64,000 nt of DNA, from positions 558,001-622,000 of the forward strand of contig NZ_JAPEVI010000003.1 in assembly GCF_026240905.1 (NCBI RefSeq), given 5' to 3'. The first letter of the stretch is position 1; each line of letters starts with the position of its first letter. Shown piece by piece: positions 8,653 through 17,032 of the stretch. The translations under genes were made by a program, and so were the position numbers. Below the pieces are notes generated by a model. The model was not told where the DNA came from. It searched no databases and saw only the letters and a program-made list of their open reading frames with translations. This stretch comes from Roseibium salinum (GTDB lineage Bacteria > Pseudomonadota > Alphaproteobacteria > Rhizobiales > Stappiaceae).

Positions 8653-9045
8653 TCAGAACCACATATCCCGGACCGTTCGCCCGTCACGCGGCAGGTCGTC
8701 CCAGGTCTTCAGGCCGTCGAAATGGTCGATCGGCAGATCCGCGATCGGGTCCGGTTCGGTCAGGCGCACGTTGACCGCCGTCCAGTGGCGACCGTCTTCT
8801 TGTGGTTTCACCGCCACGTAATGGGTGGTGCAACCGCATTTCGGGCAGAAGTGGTAATCAATGGTGCCTCCGGTCTTCCGGTAAGCCCTCGTCTCGCCGG
8901 TCACATCGATGTCGTGATCGATATGGCCGTAAGCCCACAGGACACCAAACCGGCGGCAAGAGGTGCAATTGCAGGCGGTCACCGATTCCGGCATGGTCTT
9001 GAGGATCCATCTGACCCCGCCGCAGTGACATGTTCCTTCCAGCAT
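8653..9045 (-). CDS. GFA-fold (glutathione-dependent formaldehyde-activating-like) protein
   Basis: A 130-residue zinc-binding protein of the Mss4/GFA fold. The two zinc-ligand pairs and the reactive Cys cluster are present: GTCHCGGV near residue 4, ACNCTSCRRFG near 24, and FCPKCGCTTHY near 66. The named enzyme of this family (Gfa) was reported to speed S-hydroxymethylglutathione formation, but most members have no shown activity. The start has GGGAGAAGCGAG upstream. It is divergent from a second, different GFA protein about 300 bases away. Confidence 0.88.
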   Translation of the reverse strand: MLEGTCHCGGVRWILKTMPESVTACNCTSCRRFGVLWAYGHIDHDIDVTGETRAYRKTGGTIDYHFCPKCGCTTHYVAVKPQEDGRHWTAVNVRLTEPDPIADLPIDHFDGLKTWDDLPRDGRTVRDMWF

Positions 9046-9342: not shown

Positions 9343-9804
9343 ATGGGTCGACAAGACTTTCCCGTAAAAGGCACGTGCCGCTGCGGTCGCACTAGCTTCG
9401 AGATATCGGCTCCGCCACTTGCCACAGCTGCCTGCCACTGCAGAGGCTGCCAGCAGATGAGTTCCAGCGCCTATTCCCTGAGCGCGATCATGCCGGCGCC
9501 GGCCTTCCGCGTGAGCGAGGGGACGCCGGAAAAGGGTGGGCTTCAGGGGCCGAGGGCCGATCACTTCTTCTGTCCCCACTGCAAGACCTGGATGTTCACG
9601 CGCATTCCCGGATATGACGACATCGTCAATGTCCGTTCCACGTTGCTCGAGGACCTGGGCTGGAGCGAGCCGTTCATCGAAACCATGACGGCGGAAAAAC
9701 TGCCCTGGGCGCAGACGCCCGCCAAGCACAGCTTTGAGGGATTTCCCGAATTGGACGTTCTCCCCAAGCTCATCGAAGAGTTCGCCCGGACCCGCCACGC
9801 CTGA
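9343..9804 (+). CDS. GFA-fold protein (second copy type)
   Basis: A 153-residue GFA-fold protein with the Cys pattern GTCRCGRTSF near residue 9, ACHCRGCQQMSS near 29 and FFCPHCKTWMFTR near 74. It belongs to the longer branch that has a C-terminal extension (LPWAQTPAKHSFEGFPELD). It is only distantly alike to the neighbouring GFA protein on the other strand, so the two are not a recent tandem duplication. The ATG has AAGGA upstream. The 297 bases between the two genes should hold both promoters; I see no clear operator there. Confidence 0.88.
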   Translation: MGRQDFPVKGTCRCGRTSFEISAPPLATAACHCRGCQQMSSSAYSLSAIMPAPAFRVSEGTPEKGGLQGPRADHFFCPHCKTWMFTRIPGYDDIVNVRSTLLEDLGWSEPFIETMTAEKLPWAQTPAKHSFEGFPELDVLPKLIEEFARTRHA

Positions 9805-9900
9805 TCTGCACCCGCGGGACCGGCGGCCAGGCCCGGAAATTGCGCAAAGTCTGCACAAGTCCTGAAAGAGAGCTGCACGCGGTGACGTGACAAAGGGGGC

Positions 9901-11367
9901 ATGAGATTTCCGGCTCCCACTTTCCTCACTTTTGCACTCGCCTCGCTGATACTGGCCTATGAACCGTTCCGCTGGCTCATAGGTTCCTGGTTCGACCCAT
10001 CCTATTCCTCGACCGGCGCCCTTTACCTCGTTGCGATTGCCGCCCTTCTTGCCCGGTCGCTCTCCAGTCCCGTTGTCCGGATAAACTCCCGATCCCGCCA
10101 GACGGCTGTCATACTGCTGGCGGTCTCGGCGCTCATCAGGCTTGCGAGCCAGGTTCTGGCGATCAACGTGATCGGCGGATTTGCGCTGTCGCTCGACATC
10201 TTTGCGCTCGCAATGCTGCTGCGCACCGGGGAACGCGCCAGGCCGGTCTCGGCATTCTGGCTTTCCGTCCTGTTTCTGTTCACGCTGCCGGTTGAGCGGA
10301 TTCTTCAACGGGTCATCGGATATCCGCTGCAGGAGCTCTCCGCCAGGCTTTCCTGTAGGGGGCTTGGCCTGTTCTTCAACGATCTTTCCTGTTCCGGCAT
10401 TCGCATCGAGCTTGCGGGGAAAGACGTGCTGGTCGATCTGCCCTGCTCCGGCACATCCGGACTGATGCTGGCCATGGCCTGCCTGGTGATCCTCAATGTG
10501 CTCTATCGGCCGCGTTTGACGACTGCGTTGCCCTGGTTCGGCATCGTCCTTTCCCTGAGCCTTCTCGGCAACGCATTGCGCATCAGCGTGTTAGCGACCG
10601 GCATTGCCTGGCCCGAGAGCTTTTTCGGTCTCGACGTCATGGCGCGGCCGCTGCACGACATGATCGGTTACCTGACCCTTGCCGTGTCGATGGCGCCGGT
10701 CCTGGCCTTCTATAGGCCGAGGCCGGTCACCGAGCGGCCGGTGCCGCCCTGCCTGCCGGTCCGGATCGGGTCGAGAGGCACTCGGGAACTGGGCGCACTC
10801 GTCTTTCTGGCACTGGCGCTGGTCATCGTCGCCTTGCCCCGGCAGGCCCTGGACGTTTCCGCCGCGGCGAAGCCGCAGGCGCTGCCAGCCTCGCTGAGCG
10901 GAGAGGTTGGTGCCGAGGAGGAGTTGCATCCTGTCGAGAAGCGTTACTTCAGTCAATTCGGCGGTCACGCCCAGAAGAAGCGATACGGCCCGCTGGCACT
11001 CACCCTCGTGCATACGTCATCTCCCTTGCGCCACCTCCATGCCCCGGACGACTGCCTGCGCGGGCTCGGCTATGACGTTGAATTCCTGGGCACGCGTTTT
11101 GACCCGGTTCCGACCGCTCTCTACCGGGCGCGGGCGGTGACCGGTGAAGAGTGGCGCGTGGCCGTGACTTTCACCTCAAGCGATGGCGACGTCACCCACA
11201 ACATCGCAGAAGCCATCTGGGCATGGTTGCAAAAGCCCTCGACGACCTGGACCAGCGTTCAGCGCATCACGCCCTGGACCGTGCCCGACGGCCGGCGGGC
11301 CGCCCTTGAAGGCGCGGTTATTGCCGCTCTCGATCTCCATCCAACTTCAGAAGGATATTTGCCATGA
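9901..11367 (+). CDS. xrtT: Exosortase with fused EpsI-like C-terminal domain (exosortase T-like)
   Basis: A 488-residue membrane protein. Residues 1-300 are exosortase: about eight hydrophobic helices and the three invariant catalytic positions, Cys182 in LPCSGTSGL, Arg227 in GNALRIS and His252 in LHDMIGYL. After another hydrophobic stretch (ELGALVFLALALVIVALP) the last 170 residues resemble the EpsI/exosortase C-terminal-associated domain, including SSPLRHLHAPDDCLRGLGY. Exosortases are transpeptidase-like enzymes that process PEP-CTERM substrates at the inner membrane. The next gene, overlapping by ATGA, encodes an obvious substrate. I recall a single-target family of this architecture named exosortase T; the symbol rests on that recollection and context. 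The identity as an exosortase is firm. Confidence 0.88.
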   Translation: MRFPAPTFLTFALASLILAYEPFRWLIGSWFDPSYSSTGALYLVAIAALLARSLSSPVVRINSRSRQTAVILLAVSALIRLASQVLAINVIGGFALSLDIFALAMLLRTGERARPVSAFWLSVLFLFTLPVERILQRVIGYPLQELSARLSCRGLGLFFNDLSCSGIRIELAGKDVLVDLPCSGTSGLMLAMACLVILNVLYRPRLTTALPWFGIVLSLSLLGNALRISVLATGIAWPESFFGLDVMARPLHDMIGYLTLAVSMAPVLAFYRPRPVTERPVPPCLPVRIGSRGTRELGALVFLALALVIVALPRQALDVSAAAKPQALPASLSGEVGAEEELHPVEKRYFSQFGGHAQKKRYGPLALTLVHTSSPLRHLHAPDDCLRGLGYDVEFLGTRFDPVPTALYRARAVTGEEWRVAVTFTSSDGDVTHNIAEAIWAWLQKPSTTWTSVQRITPWTVPDGRRAALEGAVIAALDLHPTSEGYLP

Positions 11368-13613
11368 GAGTCCCTATGCGACTGACACGGGTCCTATTTG
11401 CCGTTGTCAGCACGTCCACCGCGTTCGGCTGGCCTGCCGTTGCAGCCGTTCCCGAGACGGACGAGGTCTCAGGTTCCGTTGTCGCGACACTGAACGGCAA
11501 GGAATTCCGCCTGCCGTTGCTCGAGGCGGATTACGATGTCGACATTGACGGCGATGTCGCCCATGTCACGCTGACCCAAACGTTCCTCAATCCCACCTCT
11601 CAGCCGTTGCACGCCAGCTATCTCTTTCCGATGAACCAAAAGGCAGCCATCCATGCCATGCGCATGGAACTGGATGGGGAAACCATCGTGGCGCGCATTC
11701 AGGAAAAGGAACAGGCCACGGCGATGTTCAACAAGGCAAAGGCGGAAGGCAAGGCTGCTTCGCTCCTTACGCAGCACCGGCCCAACATGTTTACCCAGGA
11801 CATCGCCCATCTGATGCCGGGCCGTCCGGTCAGGATCACCATCGAATACGTTCAGAACGTTGCGAAGATCGACGGCGCCTATGAGCTCGTCATCCCGATG
11901 GTCGTCGGTCCACGCTATGAAGGCGGCGGCGCAAAAGAGCCTGCTCCAGTATTTTCAGCGAATTATCATGACGGTGACGAAGCCACGGCGGGGGAAGCTC
12001 AACTGCCGTCCGAAACTGAGCTGGTGTCGGGCTGGCATATCGAGAAGTTGCCCGACTATCCGCGCGTGATCGGGCAGGATGCGCCGGAGAATATCGATCC
12101 GGACCGCGTGTCGCTTGATCTTACCCTCGCATCGCCGATCCCGGTCTCCGCACTCTGGAGCGACACCCACGCGCTGTCGGTGATTGGGGACCAGACGCGG
12201 AAAACCGTCCGCTTCAGGAATGGCCGGGACATCGACAATCGCGATTTCGTTCTGCGTTATGAACTTGCATCCGAAACACATGTGTCAGCAGGACTGACGT
12301 CCCATTTCGATCGGGAGCGGGGCGGCTATCTGTCGCTCCTGATCGAGCCGCCGAAGCTGCCGGCGGAGCAGATGATCGGGCAGCGGGAAATGGTGTTCGT
12401 CCTGGACACGTCAGGCTCCATGCGCGGCCTGCCGATGGAAGCCAGCAAGACGTTCATGAAGGCGGCCATCCAGGCACTTCGGCCAGATGACTATGTTCGC
12501 ATTCTCCGGTTTTCCGACAACACGTCGCAGTTCGCTGCCGGACCCGTTCTGGCGAAGGAGCGCAACAAGCAGGCCGCGCTCAGATTTGTCTCTGGTTTGA
12601 GCGCAAGTGGCGGCACCGAACTCAACCGGGCGATCAACACCGCCTTCGACATGCCGCAGCCGGACAATACCACGCGGATCGTCGTATTCCTGACTGATGG
12701 CTATATCGGAGCGGAATCGCAGGTCATTGCCTCGATCTCCCGGCGTATCGGCAATGCACGCATCTACGCCTTCGGTGTGGGCGATGCGGTCAACCGGTAT
12801 CTGCTGGAGGCGATGGCGAAGGAGGGCAGGGGATACGCCCGTATCGTGCCGGTCGGCGAGGATGCCAACGAGGTTGCCGAAAGCCTGGCGGCAAAACTGA
12901 AAACGCCGCTGCTGACGGATATTTCCATCGACTGGAATGGGCTGACGGTCAATGATCAGGCGCCCTCCCGGATCCCGGATCTGTTCGAGGGCGGTTCCGT
13001 TCGTGTGCTGGGACGGTACCCAGCTGGCGGCAAACACAGGGTCTATGTCGAGGGAACGGTCAACGGCCGTCCGGCGAGAATGCCGCTGGATGTCGACCTG
13101 ATGGGGGCCGCCAGCGAGGCGGCGGAGCCTGCGCCGGCGCTGCCGCTGATCTGGGCGCGTGAACAGATCTTCGACAAGAACCGCGACTACGCCATCAGCG
13201 GCGGGAGTGACCGGAGCCTGAAAGACGAGATCACGCAATTGGGGCTGAGCTATTCGCTGCAATCGCCATTCACATCGTTCGTTGCCGTCTCGGAAAGAAA
13301 GGTCAATGCGGATCCAACATCCGCCGCGCAGGCAAGCGTTCCGCTGCCGCAGGTCTCGGGCGTTGCCGCAAATGCCTATCCGTCGCTCAATCTGAGTGGC
13401 AGTTCCACTCCCGAGCCGGAAGGCATATTCGGCATAGTGATGCTCCTGTTCGCCCTGGCCGCACGTTTCCGCAGGTGCCTGACGAGCCTGTTGCGGAAGA
13501 TGCCGGATGCGCTGGCAGGACTTTTCCGCCGGCATCGGGAAGGTGGTGCCGTAGAATTGGACCGATCCCTGCCGCGGCCCCTCCGCCGGGACGGTTGGTG
13601 GCTGGAAACCTGA
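11364..13613 (+). CDS. VIT and VWA domain protein with PEP-CTERM-like sorting signal (probable exosortase substrate)
   Basis: A 749-residue exported protein. A signal peptide (residues 1-28, ending AVAA) leads into a vault/inter-alpha-trypsin (VIT) domain at about 35-165 with TQTFLNPTSQPLHASYLFPM and EKEQATAMFNKAKAEGKAASLL. A von Willebrand A domain follows, with an intact MIDAS, DTSGSM at 348-353 and later SASGGTELNRA and FLTDGYIG. Near the C-terminus STPEPEGIFGIVMLLFALAARFRR (683 onward) is a PEP motif, hydrophobic helix and Arg cluster, as in exosortase substrates. Odd: about 45 further residues follow the Arg cluster, whereas such signals usually end there. It overlaps the exosortase gene by four bases. 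Marine proteobacterial sortase targets have the same VIT-VWA architecture. Confidence 0.88.
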   Translation: MRVPMRLTRVLFAVVSTSTAFGWPAVAAVPETDEVSGSVVATLNGKEFRLPLLEADYDVDIDGDVAHVTLTQTFLNPTSQPLHASYLFPMNQKAAIHAMRMELDGETIVARIQEKEQATAMFNKAKAEGKAASLLTQHRPNMFTQDIAHLMPGRPVRITIEYVQNVAKIDGAYELVIPMVVGPRYEGGGAKEPAPVFSANYHDGDEATAGEAQLPSETELVSGWHIEKLPDYPRVIGQDAPENIDPDRVSLDLTLASPIPVSALWSDTHALSVIGDQTRKTVRFRNGRDIDNRDFVLRYELASETHVSAGLTSHFDRERGGYLSLLIEPPKLPAEQMIGQREMVFVLDTSGSMRGLPMEASKTFMKAAIQALRPDDYVRILRFSDNTSQFAAGPVLAKERNKQAALRFVSGLSASGGTELNRAINTAFDMPQPDNTTRIVVFLTDGYIGAESQVIASISRRIGNARIYAFGVGDAVNRYLLEAMAKEGRGYARIVPVGEDANEVAESLAAKLKTPLLTDISIDWNGLTVNDQAPSRIPDLFEGGSVRVLGRYPAGGKHRVYVEGTVNGRPARMPLDVDLMGAASEAAEPAPALPLIWAREQIFDKNRDYAISGGSDRSLKDEITQLGLSYSLQSPFTSFVAVSERKVNADPTSAAQASVPLPQVSGVAANAYPSLNLSGSSTPEPEGIFGIVMLLFALAARFRRCLTSLLRKMPDALAGLFRRHREGGAVELDRSLPRPLRRDGWWLET

Positions 13614-13682
13614 TCTTGCCTCCGGTAATGATAGCGCTCCCGCGATTGATTGCGGGAGCCGTGAATTTCAGGAAAAATCGTC

Positions 13683-14402
13683 TTGCAGAGCAAAACCATT
13701 CTTGTCGTCGATGACGATCCGCATATCCGGGAAGTGATCTGTTTCGCGCTTCAAAAGGCCTCCTATGCCTACGAGATTGCCGTCAACGGCAAGGAAGCGG
13801 TGGACAAGGCGGCGCTCTTCGATCCTGCGCTGATCGTGCTCGATATCGGTCTTCCGGAAATGGACGGGCTCGAGGTCTGCCGTCACCTGCGCAAGACGTC
13901 CGACGTGCCGATCCTGTTTCTGTCGGCCCGCGACGACGAGATCGACCGCATCGTGGGCCTGGAACTCGGCGCGGACGATTATGTGACAAAACCCTTCAGC
14001 CCGCGCGAGCTGATCGCCCGGGTCGGGGCGATCCTCAAGCGGTTCGGCGTCTCGCAACCGCCTGGTGCCGGAGCGCGCGAACAGGCGGGGCTCAGCCATG
14101 GTGTCCTGACCCTGGAGAAGGACCAGCGGCTGGTTTCGGCGGGGGAGGTGGCGGTCGCCCTGACGGCCATCGAGTTCGATATCCTGGCAACGCTGCTCGC
14201 CCGCCCGAAGATCGTGTTCACGCGGGAAAAGATCCTGGATCGCGCCTACAAGGACAATATCCACGTGTCCGACCGGACGATCGACAGCCACATCCGCAAC
14301 ATTCGCGCCAAGCTTGCCGCCGCCGGGTGCGGCGATGCGATTGAAACCGTGCATGGCGTCGGCTTCCGGCTGGGGCCGTGCCGGGGCGACGGCGGGTCCT
14401 GA
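13683..14402 (+). CDS. OmpR-family response regulator of the exosortase locus
   Basis: A 239-residue regulator starting at a TTG with AGGAAA upstream. The receiver domain has VVDDDPH, phospho-acceptor Asp54 in IVLDIGLPEMDG, FLSARDD and YVTKPFSPREL; the winged helix has LTAIEFDILATLLARP, HVSDRTIDSHIRNIRAKL and IETVHGVGFRLG. It lies 69 bases after the VIT/VWA gene and six bases before the kinase, all on one strand, so the four genes form one block. Dedicated sortase systems of marine proteobacteria carry an equivalent regulator-kinase pair; here it probably controls expression or activity of the exosortase substrate (inference). Confidence 0.92.
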   Translation: MQSKTILVVDDDPHIREVICFALQKASYAYEIAVNGKEAVDKAALFDPALIVLDIGLPEMDGLEVCRHLRKTSDVPILFLSARDDEIDRIVGLELGADDYVTKPFSPRELIARVGAILKRFGVSQPPGAGAREQAGLSHGVLTLEKDQRLVSAGEVAVALTAIEFDILATLLARPKIVFTREKILDRAYKDNIHVSDRTIDSHIRNIRAKLAAAGCGDAIETVHGVGFRLGPCRGDGGS

Positions 14403-14408
14403 CCGGCG

Positions 14409-16004
14409 ATGCTGCTTTCCAGATCCTTCCGCGACAGATGGCGTCCGCCGCTCAGTCTTGTGGTGGCGCTGGTGCTTGGCATCATGCTGCTGGTGCCGCT
14501 CGCGGGGATCGTGTTTTTCCGTGTCTATGAGAACCAGCTCATCCAGGCGACCGAAGCCGAACTGATCGCTCAATCGGCCGCGATCGCGGCGGCGACGGCA
14601 CAGCGTCTTGTCGAGGCCGGCGGAGACGAGCTGCCGCTCGGCACCATGGTTTCCGCGTCTCCCCGAGATGGAGCCTATTACAGCCGCCCGAACGGGCGCT
14701 GGGCGCCGCAACTGCCGGAGCTGGACCTCAACCGGACCGATATTCAGCCGAGACGTCCGGACGCGGCAGACGCCGATCAGCCGGCCCATGCGGCTTATCT
14801 CCGCGCCGGAGAAGAAATCGCCATGATCCTGCAGGAAACGCAGAAGCGCACGCTTGCCGGGTTCCGGCTGCTGGATTTCAACGGTGTGGTGATTGCCGGA
14901 AGCGATGAAGTGGGGCAGTCGCTGGCGCATGTGGAAGAGGTGCGGCAAGCGCTTTCCGGGCGCTATGCCAGCGCGCTCAGGGAGCGGGTGGTCGACAATC
15001 CGCAGCCGATCTATTCGATCAGCCGCGGCACGTCCGTGAGGGTGTTTACCGCCATGCCGATCGTGGTGGAGGGCAGGGTGGCCGGTGCGGTCTATGCCTC
15101 GCGCACGCCGAGCAACATCCTGAAAGAGATGTTCGTGAAACGCGAGACCGTCCTTGGTGTGCTGGCCTTCGTACTCGGTGCAACCTTCGTGGTCGGTTTC
15201 ATTTTTGTCCGGGCCATATCGGGTCCGATAAAGGCGCTCACGACAAGATCGCTCCAGATAGGAAGCGGAGATCGTAACGCTTTGAAACCCCTTGCCATTC
15301 ACGGCAACAGGGAAATTCATGCGCTTTCGCAGAGCATGCTCGACATGTCCCGCAAGCTGTTCGAGCAGAACGATTATATCTCCACTTTCGCCAATCATGT
15401 GACCCATGAGCTGAAAACACCGCTGACCGCCATCCAGGGGGCTGCGGAACTGCTGCGGGACGGCGGCGACGATTTGAGTGAGGCCGAGCGTGCGCGGTTC
15501 CTGGACAACATCCTCAAGGATACGGAGCGCGCCTCGCTGCTTCTCAATCGCCTGCGCGAGCTTGCCCGAGCCGACAGTGTCGAGATCGGCGGCACATGCA
15601 GACTGGCGGATGTCCTGAGCGGAATCCTGAGCCGCTTCGAAGGCGTTACCGTGGACTGGACGGAAGACTGCGACTTGCCGCTCTCGGCGGAAAATGCCCG
15701 CATCGTTCTTGAGAACCTGATCGACAATTCCGTTAAGCACGGAGCCGGTCGCGTGCGATTTTCCGTCGAGCGATCAGAGCGCACGCTTATGGTGAAGGTG
15801 GCGGACAACGGCAAGGGCGTCACGCAGGGCAATGCGGACCAGATCTTCGACCTGTTTTTCACCACGCGGCGGGAAAACGGCGGTACGGGAATGGGCCTCG
15901 GCATCGTTCAGGCATTGCTCAAGGCGCACAAGGCGTCGATCCGCCTTGTGCCTGGTGAGGAAAGAGGCGCCTGTTTCGAGATCACGTTTCCGCTGCCTAA
16001 ATAG
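14409..16004 (+). CDS. Sensor histidine kinase of the exosortase locus
   Basis: A 531-residue membrane kinase. Transmembrane helix 1 lies at about residues 15-38 (VVALVLGIMLLVPLAGIVFF), a large periplasmic sensor of about 200 residues follows (with GEEIAMILQETQKRTLAGFRLLDFNG), then helix 2 near 240-263, HAMP, a HisKA domain with His333 in HVTHELKTPLTAIQGA, and an ATPase domain with LENLIDNSVKHG, VADNGKGVT and GTGMGLGIV. All catalytic boxes are intact. It ends the exosortase block; downstream is a repeat region with an insertion sequence. The signal it senses is unknown; the periplasmic domain and the locus suggest envelope or surface-protein status. Confidence 0.92.
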   Translation: MLLSRSFRDRWRPPLSLVVALVLGIMLLVPLAGIVFFRVYENQLIQATEAELIAQSAAIAAATAQRLVEAGGDELPLGTMVSASPRDGAYYSRPNGRWAPQLPELDLNRTDIQPRRPDAADADQPAHAAYLRAGEEIAMILQETQKRTLAGFRLLDFNGVVIAGSDEVGQSLAHVEEVRQALSGRYASALRERVVDNPQPIYSISRGTSVRVFTAMPIVVEGRVAGAVYASRTPSNILKEMFVKRETVLGVLAFVLGATFVVGFIFVRAISGPIKALTTRSLQIGSGDRNALKPLAIHGNREIHALSQSMLDMSRKLFEQNDYISTFANHVTHELKTPLTAIQGAAELLRDGGDDLSEAERARFLDNILKDTERASLLLNRLRELARADSVEIGGTCRLADVLSGILSRFEGVTVDWTEDCDLPLSAENARIVLENLIDNSVKHGAGRVRFSVERSERTLMVKVADNGKGVTQGNADQIFDLFFTTRRENGGTGMGLGIVQALLKAHKASIRLVPGEERGACFEITFPLPK

Positions 16005-16111: not shown

Positions 16112-17032
16112 GAGTCTGACTCGAAACTCATTTTGTTAGCTTTGCCTGTCGCCTGATGATTAGTTCGATGTTTGCGATATAGATCCAAGCGGTTTGGGTT
16201 TCCTGTTTTGCTTCAAAGTCTTTTGCAAGGCGTCTGCGTCGGCCGAACCAGGCAAAGGTTCTCTCAACAACCCATCGTCTTGGCAGGAGCGCAAATCCCT
16301 TGACCCCAGGTGGCCGTTGCACGATTTCGATCGACCATGGCCCGCAATCCTTGAGCTTTTCCAGAAGCTTCGGGCCACGGTAGACGCGATCGGCGAAGAT
16401 ATGAGTAAGATCGGGATAGATCCGCCGCAGGCTTTGCAGCAGCGGCACAGCTGCGTGCACGTCCTGGATATTGGCGGGATGCACCAGAACGTCCAGAACG
16501 AGCCCGTCTGTATCGGTGACGATGTGACGCTTGCGACCCTTGATGCGCTTGAAGGGATCAAGGCCTCGTGGCCCGCCGACTTGGGTCGTTGCCACGCTCT
16601 GGCTGTCGATCACACCGGCGGACGGAGTGGCACTGCGTGCCTGCGCTTGTCGGTGCTGCTCCACTATCCGCCGGTTCAACCCACGCCATAACTCATTGTC
16701 ACGCCACGCATAAAAGTATCTCTGGACAGTCGAGCGCGGCGGAAAATCACTTGGCAAAAAGCGCCAGGGGCAGCCCGTACGCAGCAGATAGAGGATCGCG
16801 TTGACCACTTCCCGAAGCGACGTTGTGCGCGGCCTCCCACGCTCTCGCCTCTCCGGAAGATGAGGCGCGATCAAATCCCACTCTTCGTTCGTCAGATCGC
16901 TTGCGTAACGCTGGCCACGACGCTCATAGTTGGCACGGGTGATCTCGGTCCACATGGTGAAGCTCCGTTCTGTTAGCGCAATAACGGAATCACAAGCGAC
17001 CGGGATCACTCAATACATTTCGGGCCAGTCTC
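16112..17032 (-). mobile_element. Intact IS5-family (IS427-like) insertion sequence, 921 bp
   Basis: The transposase gene is flanked by imperfect inverted repeats: GAGTCTGACTCGAAA at 16112-16126 and, on the other strand from 17032, GAGACTGGCCCGAAA (12 of 15 match). A TGA triplet flanks both ends (16109-16111 and 17033-17035), a 3-bp target duplication of the TNA type used by the IS427 group. Removing the element and one TGA joins CCTCATCC-TGA-GGAAGCGCGGAGCGC, rebuilding a palindromic repeat, which supports these exact ends. Confidence 0.82.
16128..16955 (-). CDS. IS5-family DDE transposase
   Basis: A 275-residue single-frame transposase. The N-terminal DUF4096-type domain reads LTNEEWDLIAPHLPERRERGRPRT and LLRTGCPWRFLPSDFPPRSTVQRYF; the DDE domain has IDSQSV (first Asp), the GPRGLDPFKRIKGRKRHIVTDTDG block, HIFADRVYRG (second Asp) and RRWVVERTFAWFGRRRRL (final Glu). 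All three acidic residues and the Y-(2)-R-(3)-E-like region are present, so the enzyme looks active. Unlike many IS5/IS427 members it is one uninterrupted frame without programmed frameshift. The ATG at 16955 is chosen over upstream frames because the family starts MWTEITRANYERRG or similar. Confidence 0.93.
   Translation of the reverse strand: MWTEITRANYERRGQRYASDLTNEEWDLIAPHLPERRERGRPRTTSLREVVNAILYLLRTGCPWRFLPSDFPPRSTVQRYFYAWRDNELWRGLNRRIVEQHRQAQARSATPSAGVIDSQSVATTQVGGPRGLDPFKRIKGRKRHIVTDTDGLVLDVLVHPANIQDVHAAVPLLQSLRRIYPDLTHIFADRVYRGPKLLEKLKDCGPWSIEIVQRPPGVKGFALLPRRWVVERTFAWFGRRRRLAKDFEAKQETQTAWIYIANIELIIRRQAKLTK

Follow-up and report, generated by a model that had tools for sequence, protein, structure and literature searches.

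A conserved C-terminal peptide that may link exosortase T-dependent protein sorting to a CreBC-like two-component pair in Roseibium salinum

To our knowledge, the signal sensed by two-component pairs that are encoded beside protein-sorting enzymes is an open question. A locus of Roseibium salinum raises it for an exosortase: what connects the sorting enzyme and its substrate to the response regulator and sensor kinase encoded behind them? The locus lies in a window of 64,000 nucleotides (contig NZ_JAPEVI010000003.1, positions 558,001 to 622,000; coordinates below are those of the window) from a genome of 5.78 Mb in three contigs. Four open reading frames, all on the plus strand, occupy positions 9901-16004 and encode exosortase T (XrtT), a VIT/VWA substrate, a response regulator and a histidine kinase. 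The substrate ends in a conserved tail, and relatives that lack XrtT retain this tail and the promoter box of the operon beside the same type of regulator and kinase. The conserved peptide may thus be a link between protein sorting and signalling. The features of the locus are as follows.

9841..9882, plus strand: cre-tag-like box, putative response regulator site (position weight matrix (PWM) score 46.0; pattern search of 87 genomes)
9901..11367, plus strand: xrtT, exosortase T, 488 aa (NF033770, 689.8 bits)
11364..13613, plus strand: VIT/VWA substrate, 749 aa (Pfam VIT and VWA over cut-off; sorting-signal profile)
13560..13613, plus strand: conserved C-terminal tail DRSLPRPLRRDGWWLET and stop (pS/pN over 24 sequences; codon table)
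13636..13659, plus strand: perfect 8-bp hairpin in the substrate-regulator intergenic region (sequence)
13683..14402, plus strand: CreB-like response regulator (receiver and winged helix), TTG start, 239 aa (CreB model, 235.5 bits)
14409..16004, plus strand: CreC-like sensor kinase, 531 aa (CreC model, 161.2 bits; Pfam; hydropathy)

An earlier note on this DNA had read the locus as a counterpart of the marine dedicated-sortase system in which an exosortase does the sorting under its own two-component pair. To judge from profile scores, the pair is CreB/CreC-like and not a marine dedicated-sortase pair. The regulator scores best with CreB (cut-off 273 bits) and the kinase with CreC (cut-off 356), while the regulator reaches only 149.5 of the 335.7 bits required by marine_sort_RR (TIGR03787) and the kinase 85.9 of the 612.2 bits required by marine_sort_HK (TIGR03785). 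The pairs at loci L068, L069 and L179 score likewise. The Pfam domains of both proteins are over cut-off; those of the kinase are HAMP, HisKA and HATPase, and hydropathy places hydrophobic windows at its residues 17-35 and 248-266. The pair is also not dedicated to the exosortase. Among 87 genomes of the family the kinase was found in 30 and XrtT in 14, and 17 of the 30 kinase genomes are without XrtT; in genome G301 XrtT and the kinase are on separate contigs, and in G302 XrtT occurs without a detected kinase. The earlier note had named relatives with an unlinked pair as evidence that would refute its reading, and such relatives exist.

What the pair and the exosortase operon do share is the tail, which the earlier note had not singled out. 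Beyond its PEP, helix and arginine signal the substrate extends 45 residues past the arginine cluster and ends in DRSLPRPLRRDGWWLET, and the motif of such tails is DxSLPRxLRRDGWWLE[TS]. In all 13 genomes that have this type of regulator and kinase and lack XrtT, an open frame ending in the tail motif lies upstream of the regulator gene, at a distance of 58-99 bp in 12 and of 268 bp in L165; all 13 also have the box, by regular expression or PWM. The mini-frames of these loci span 55-129 codons from starts picked by eye, and nine of the 13 chosen starts pass a loose Shine-Dalgarno test. Tail codons vary synonymously (mean synonymous difference, pS, 0.614 and nonsynonymous difference, pN, 0.138 over 24 sequences), and a regulatory RNA as the cause of the conservation was rejected for this reason. 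For the 13 XrtT-less tails alone, pS is 0.609, pN 0.117 and pN/pS 0.19; by this measure the tail is under purifying selection in XrtT-less genomes. The tail occurs in 26 of the 87 genomes, all 26 of which have the kinase (Fisher p 2.7e-18, uncorrected for kinship); in G321 and G336 it was found by a separate search (variant SVRRDGWW, outside the regular pattern). That XrtT-less relatives keep box and tail beside the pair points to the tail as the partner of the regulator. In two further genomes, small proteins (L071 in G301, L072 and L073 in G303) consist of the first ~41-45 XrtT residues, a basic stretch and the tail; their genes carry the box and have no regulator directly downstream, and G303 has two copies.

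The second shared element is the box. In the window it reads TGCGC-N6-TGCAC-N6-TGAAA-N6-TGCAC, four pentamers 11 bp apart, and the consensus is TGCGCAAAATCTGCACA-n-A-nn-CTGAC-nnnnnn-CTGCAA, with pentamers TGCGC, TGCAC, TGAnn or TCAnn, and TGCAA at six-base spacing. Excerpts of one paper give TTCAC-N6-TTCAC as the CreB tag and place it roughly between -80 and -65 of creD (PMC4689548). The window box is equal to it in N6 geometry and has TGCAC/TGAnn pentamers instead of TTCAC, making the repeat a putative site for the response regulator. The pattern AANNCTGCAC-N6-T-N9-CTGCA matched 23 times in 22 of the 87 genomes, each time at xrtT or tail genes; the reversed-pattern control gave 2 matches. Eleven matches end 50-86 bp before the aligned xrtT start, two end 66 bp before the mini-genes that join an XrtT start to a tail, and 10 precede tail frames, the distance from match end to tail motif being 188-225 bp in nine of them and 451 bp in one. 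The XrtT and tail genes of G301 and G303 that are unlinked to the pair retain the box. With a PWM trained on 26 sites, the window site among them, this site scores 46.0 and the next best in the window 10.1. The shared promoter element suggests that the pair controls the XrtT operon. Close repeats of [CT]TGCAC (10-12 bp apart), counted in 68 loci that are each longer than 9 kb (949 kb in total, partly overlapping), number 13: one upstream of the L069 xrtT, one in the L173 box, one unrelated in L207 and the other 10 upstream of five regulator-kinase operons of a sister genus, two per locus. In these five loci (L177-L181) the regulator gene of the CreBC-like pair is preceded by a membrane-type gene (DUF4153, by the profile shown for L179); the mechanical reading frame start in L177 falls before the TGCAC repeat.

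How the cassette sits between these elements can be read from the relatives. The order XrtT, VIT/VWA protein, regulator, kinase is found again in 10 other loci of Stappiaceae and in L068 from another family, and is thus more than chance; the earlier note had named a conserved four-gene order as support for its reading. In L069 the pair lies upstream of xrtT and the VIT/VWA gene and in L062 there is no linked pair, while linkage in L057, L066 and L070 is limited by contig ends. On a tree of the regulator and kinase, 11 rows with XrtT and 13 without are interspersed, with at least 6 changes among the 24 rows; the starred branches of a 25-row tree force 4. Full and XrtT-less loci were compared by blastn in 11 hand-chosen pairs that share loci. 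In nine pairs a DNA match sets in within ~30 bp of the tail start (as a short block over the tail followed by a long block over regulator and kinase in window/L173 and L065/L169), and in six pairs a short block covers the box. From these blocks, the xrtT-substrate stretch sits between box and tail, and tail, regulator and kinase are largely one block. The best reading is that xrtT and the substrate gene form an optional cassette joined to a CreBC-like circuit. The tree does not tell gain of the cassette from its loss, although the hybrid mini-proteins would favour loss.

The enzyme itself is not new. Searched against exosortase families, it matches the already named XrtT over its full length (curated cut-off 250 bits), and it scores 76.8 bits with PF09721 (cut-off 25.7). 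XrtT is over cut-off in 14 of the 87 family genomes and in 4 of 289 class-sample genomes, the Roseibium salinum genome being counted in both; named relatives in a single scan were two Roseibium loci and one Stappia locus. The anatomy given in the earlier note, an exosortase overlapping a VIT/VWA gene by ATGA (start at 11364, end at 11367) with a regulator-kinase pair on the same strand, agrees with the reading frames and domain scores. So does its mention of all three catalytic residues: Cys182 (10444-10446), Arg227 (10579-10581) and His252 (10654-10656), which we take to be the exosortase catalytic set, are invariant in 20 aligned rows (17 XrtT, including the partial L066, and 3 XrtQ). An EpsI-like domain fused to the enzyme was rejected, since at E<=10 the C-terminal 195 residues match neither a Pfam family nor any EpsI model of NCBIfam (EpsI and DUF3485 being, presumably, the profile names for that domain). 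What NCBIfam returned for this region was XrtT itself, XrtO weakly and an isomerase model at E 0.0064, far under its cut-off.

The substrate scores 433.3 bits with TIGR03788, under the cut-off of 551.65. Its sorting signal is as the earlier note described it, with TPEPEG at residue 682, a hydrophobic window at 688-706 and RFRR at 701-704. The genome holds one match each to PF09721 and TIGR03788. With PF07589 nothing is found in the whole genome at E<=1, not even the XrtT target; since this model is blind to the signal, a profile was built from 29 sorting signals, the window's own among them, and run on 17 XrtT genomes (14 of the family and 3 from the class). Exactly one match at E ~1e-3 or better, at the VIT/VWA gene, was obtained in 16 of the 17, the weakest being 1.0e-3 (G112) and that of the window substrate 3.2e-20. 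In the remaining genome, G302, the substrate runs off the contig and the best match is 0.42. The second-best match in the Roseibium salinum genome (E=0.0235) was dismissed, as translations of the opposite strand read HflK/HflC-like there. One XrtT with one substrate per genome, as the earlier note had proposed, is supported by this single match and holds at the sensitivity of the profile; many substrates per enzyme were not found. A homologue search scored 7999 candidates and found 2801 homologues; among the 120 listed, 115 have a PEP motif within the last 130 residues and 58 have the tail in a broad form. A public record from Roseibium salinum (P0038, 414 aa) is 98% identical to the window substrate over 53% of its length; its end differs, and the frame of the record is therefore shorter. 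In G335 (L066, L176) XrtT and substrate lie at contig ends with both frames interrupted, and an intact near relative of this substrate exists (P0063).

We consider it somewhat probable that these elements make up an autoregulated CreBC-like circuit in which the tail is the constant partner and processing by XrtT is monitored through it. The pair would activate a single promoter through the cre-tag-like box, and this promoter would drive xrtT, the substrate gene and, by read-through, the regulator and kinase genes. XrtT would recognise the PEP signal and cut near PEP at the outer face of the inner membrane, freeing the VIT/VWA part for the cell surface and leaving membrane helix, arginine cluster and a predicted cytoplasmic tail behind in the membrane. 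The remnant tail would then most likely report to the kinase or the regulator, so that sorting is monitored. That the tail is an intracellular signalling peptide of the pair, which would let the pair sense exosortase processing when the tail is joined to the substrate remnant, is a tentative proposal to which we give less than an even chance, and direct contact between tail and kinase is about as tentative. The analogy is with C-peptide sensing in Streptococcus gordonii (SGO_1180), where a kinase senses the C-peptide of a sortase substrate according to excerpts of two papers (PMC11502775 and PMC11326707, which cite Hall et al. 2019). Common to both cases is the proposal that what remains of the C-terminus of a sorted protein informs a kinase; the Roseibium system differs in its exosortase, its conserved, predicted cytoplasmic tail and the mini-gene form of that tail, and sensing in it is a proposal only.

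Several observations weigh against this account. According to an excerpt, deletion of an adhesin C-peptide in Streptococcus agalactiae was without effect (PMC11502775), and therefore C-peptide sensing would not be general. The XrtT targets of L068, L069 and L070 are without the tail, as are 62 of the 120 listed homologues, Ruegeria ones included, and the tail is therefore not needed for sorting. Outside the family, the best PWM scores are 9.7 (L069, xrtT promoter), 4.2 (L068) and 1.2 (L070); L068 and L070 are without a box by PWM against the window background of 10.1, and a clear TGCAC-N6-TGCAC stands at the xrtT promoter in L069 only. The box at 451 bp from the tail motif, in G358 (L167), is displaced relative to the other nine. 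Four kinase genomes are without a tail by the searches made (G305, G310, G312 and G335, in the last of which the frame is interrupted), and G302 has XrtT and no kinase at E<=1e-60, a threshold that may miss diverged kinases. The 26 of 26 association of tail and kinase takes no account of kinship, and in two of the 11 locus pairs (window/L163 and L064/L174) homology resumes only past the tail.

Other explanations of the tail have to be set beside these points. It could be a cis-acting leader or arrest peptide whose translation controls the downstream regulator gene and which has no role in trans. The tail ends 58-268 bp upstream of the regulator in 24 loci, and an attenuator would be in keeping with N-termini that vary where the C-terminus is conserved, and with the hairpins of some intergenic regions. 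However, intact tails occur without a regulator directly downstream in G301 and G303 (L062, L071-L073), and the region between substrate and regulator varies among relatives in both sequence and length, so that we regard a leader as unlikely. Doubtful, too, is a localisation or turnover tag of the membrane remnant and of the small proteins, with the closeness to regulator and kinase due to shared descent. Such a tag would agree with the constant C-terminal position of the tail and with mini-proteins that carry it with or without hydrophobic stretches (by eye), but not with its confinement to kinase genomes or with its place beside the regulator in all 13 genomes that lack the cassette.

Two further explanations have to be weighed. 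XrtT is a known family and the pair exists without it in 17 of the 30 kinase genomes, so the locus could be an ordinary XrtT operon beside an unrelated CreBC-like pair, with the tail a neutral remnant of repeated deletions. The purifying selection on XrtT-less tails, the open frames in all 13 and the restriction of the box to xrtT and tail genes make this quite improbable. A marine dedicated-sortase system in which an exosortase takes the place of the sortase and the pair is dedicated, as in the earlier note, would account for the like kinds and order of genes and for a target related to TIGR03788, but the scores and the distribution of the pair given above speak against it, and we consider it very improbable.

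The XrtT model (NF033770) describes the same enzyme throughout, whereas the regulator-kinase pair, the box and the substrate tail lie outside it. The marine dedicated-sortase system (TIGR03784/03785/03787/03788) is alike in that a single VIT/VWA target adjoins a sorting enzyme together with a two-component pair; in the class GN sortase locus L192 the target is homologous, and regulator and kinase are over the TIGR03787 and TIGR03785 cut-offs. The Roseibium salinum locus differs from it in its enzyme, in a PEP rather than LPxTG-like signal, in a CreBC-like pair and in a target under the TIGR03788 cut-off. Class GN sortase was absent among the four locus proteins and four neighbours scanned (the genome as a whole was not searched), and only 4 of 16 sortase loci have a recognisable regulator and kinase (tblastn). 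The analogy drawn in the earlier note is thus apt for L192 and of limited reach among sortase loci. With CreBC(D) the locus shares its best models and an N6-spaced pentamer box upstream of the operon; it differs in having both proteins under the curated cut-offs, TGCAC instead of TTCAC, and four genes without CreD.

A related PEP-ending VIT/VWA target also adjoins an exosortase at XrtQ loci (L199-L202, L246 and L247, the exosortase of L247 being under the XrtQ cut-off with 208 of 270 bits). In contrast to the Roseibium salinum locus, the VIT gene precedes the exosortase there, the tail is lacking, and CreB and CreC are over cut-off in L200. CreB and CreC are linked in two of six XrtQ loci (L248 and L249): the order in L200/L248 is CreB-CreC-VIT-XrtQ, and in L249 CreB, CreC, CreD, VIT and XrtQ lie within 12 kb. 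The other four have no CreB, CreC or CreD within ~13 kb, a range too narrow to have shown the CreB and CreC of L249. In L248 and L249 CreBC-type control of exosortase/VIT genes is seen at other places in the phylum, and their arrangement connects exosortase sorting with the CreBC envelope system. A VIT tree of 37 rows (quick method, midpoint root) puts the targets of sortase (16), XrtT (11), XrtQ (6) and rhombosortase (4) into a clade each, with support 97-100; those of XrtT and XrtQ are sister groups (support 94). Enzyme labels come from profiles for XrtT, for L199-L202 and L246 (XrtQ), L183 and L192 (sortase) and L203 and L207 (rhombosortase), and otherwise from similarity of target and C-terminal signal. 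The tree therefore has one scaffold served by several sorting enzymes, and one clade per enzyme type suggests an old divergence of the targets rather than a recent takeover; the earlier note had inferred that an enzyme of a different fold took over the job of the sortase. The tree gives no direction. From that note, then, a single-substrate exosortase operon beside a two-component pair stands, and the type and dedication of the pair, the takeover and the EpsI fusion are not supported. As for the rhombosortases, a second VIT/VWA protein followed by a rhombosortase was seen in L203-L206, from Roseibium-type genomes, and in L207. TIGR03902 is over cut-off in L203 and L207, and a Gly-rich C-terminal signal of the second protein was seen in L203, L204 and L206. 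G352 and G336 have a rhombosortase-type VIT/VWA homologue in addition to the XrtT system.

Upstream of the box are two GFA-family genes, at 8653-9045 (minus strand) and 9343-9804 (plus strand); at E<=1e-6 only the second is matched in loci of relatives, namely in L003 and L054-L056, with a weak match in L065. Relatives, L164 and L171 among them, have a LysR gene closely 3' of the kinase gene. In the window the two are separated by an IS5-type transposase (DUF4096 and DDE; 16128-17009, minus strand).

As far as our searches of the open literature go (subscription papers were outside their scope), the box, the tail and the presence of the tail beside the pair without the cassette are new: no paper on an exosortase-VIT pairing with a dedicated two-component pair was found, and papers naming XrtT were off topic by title. 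The XrtT-VIT pairing itself may already be described in NCBIfam. If the proposed circuit is correct, it would parallel sortase C-peptide sensing in a Gram-negative, exosortase-based form, in which the peptide persists as a free-standing mini-protein where the sorting cassette is lacking. Lineages without enzyme and substrate, which retain the box and the last 17 codons of the substrate beside the pair, provide a natural comparison. In each genome the question of what such a pair senses would thereby come down to a single substrate, a single promoter box and a short peptide.

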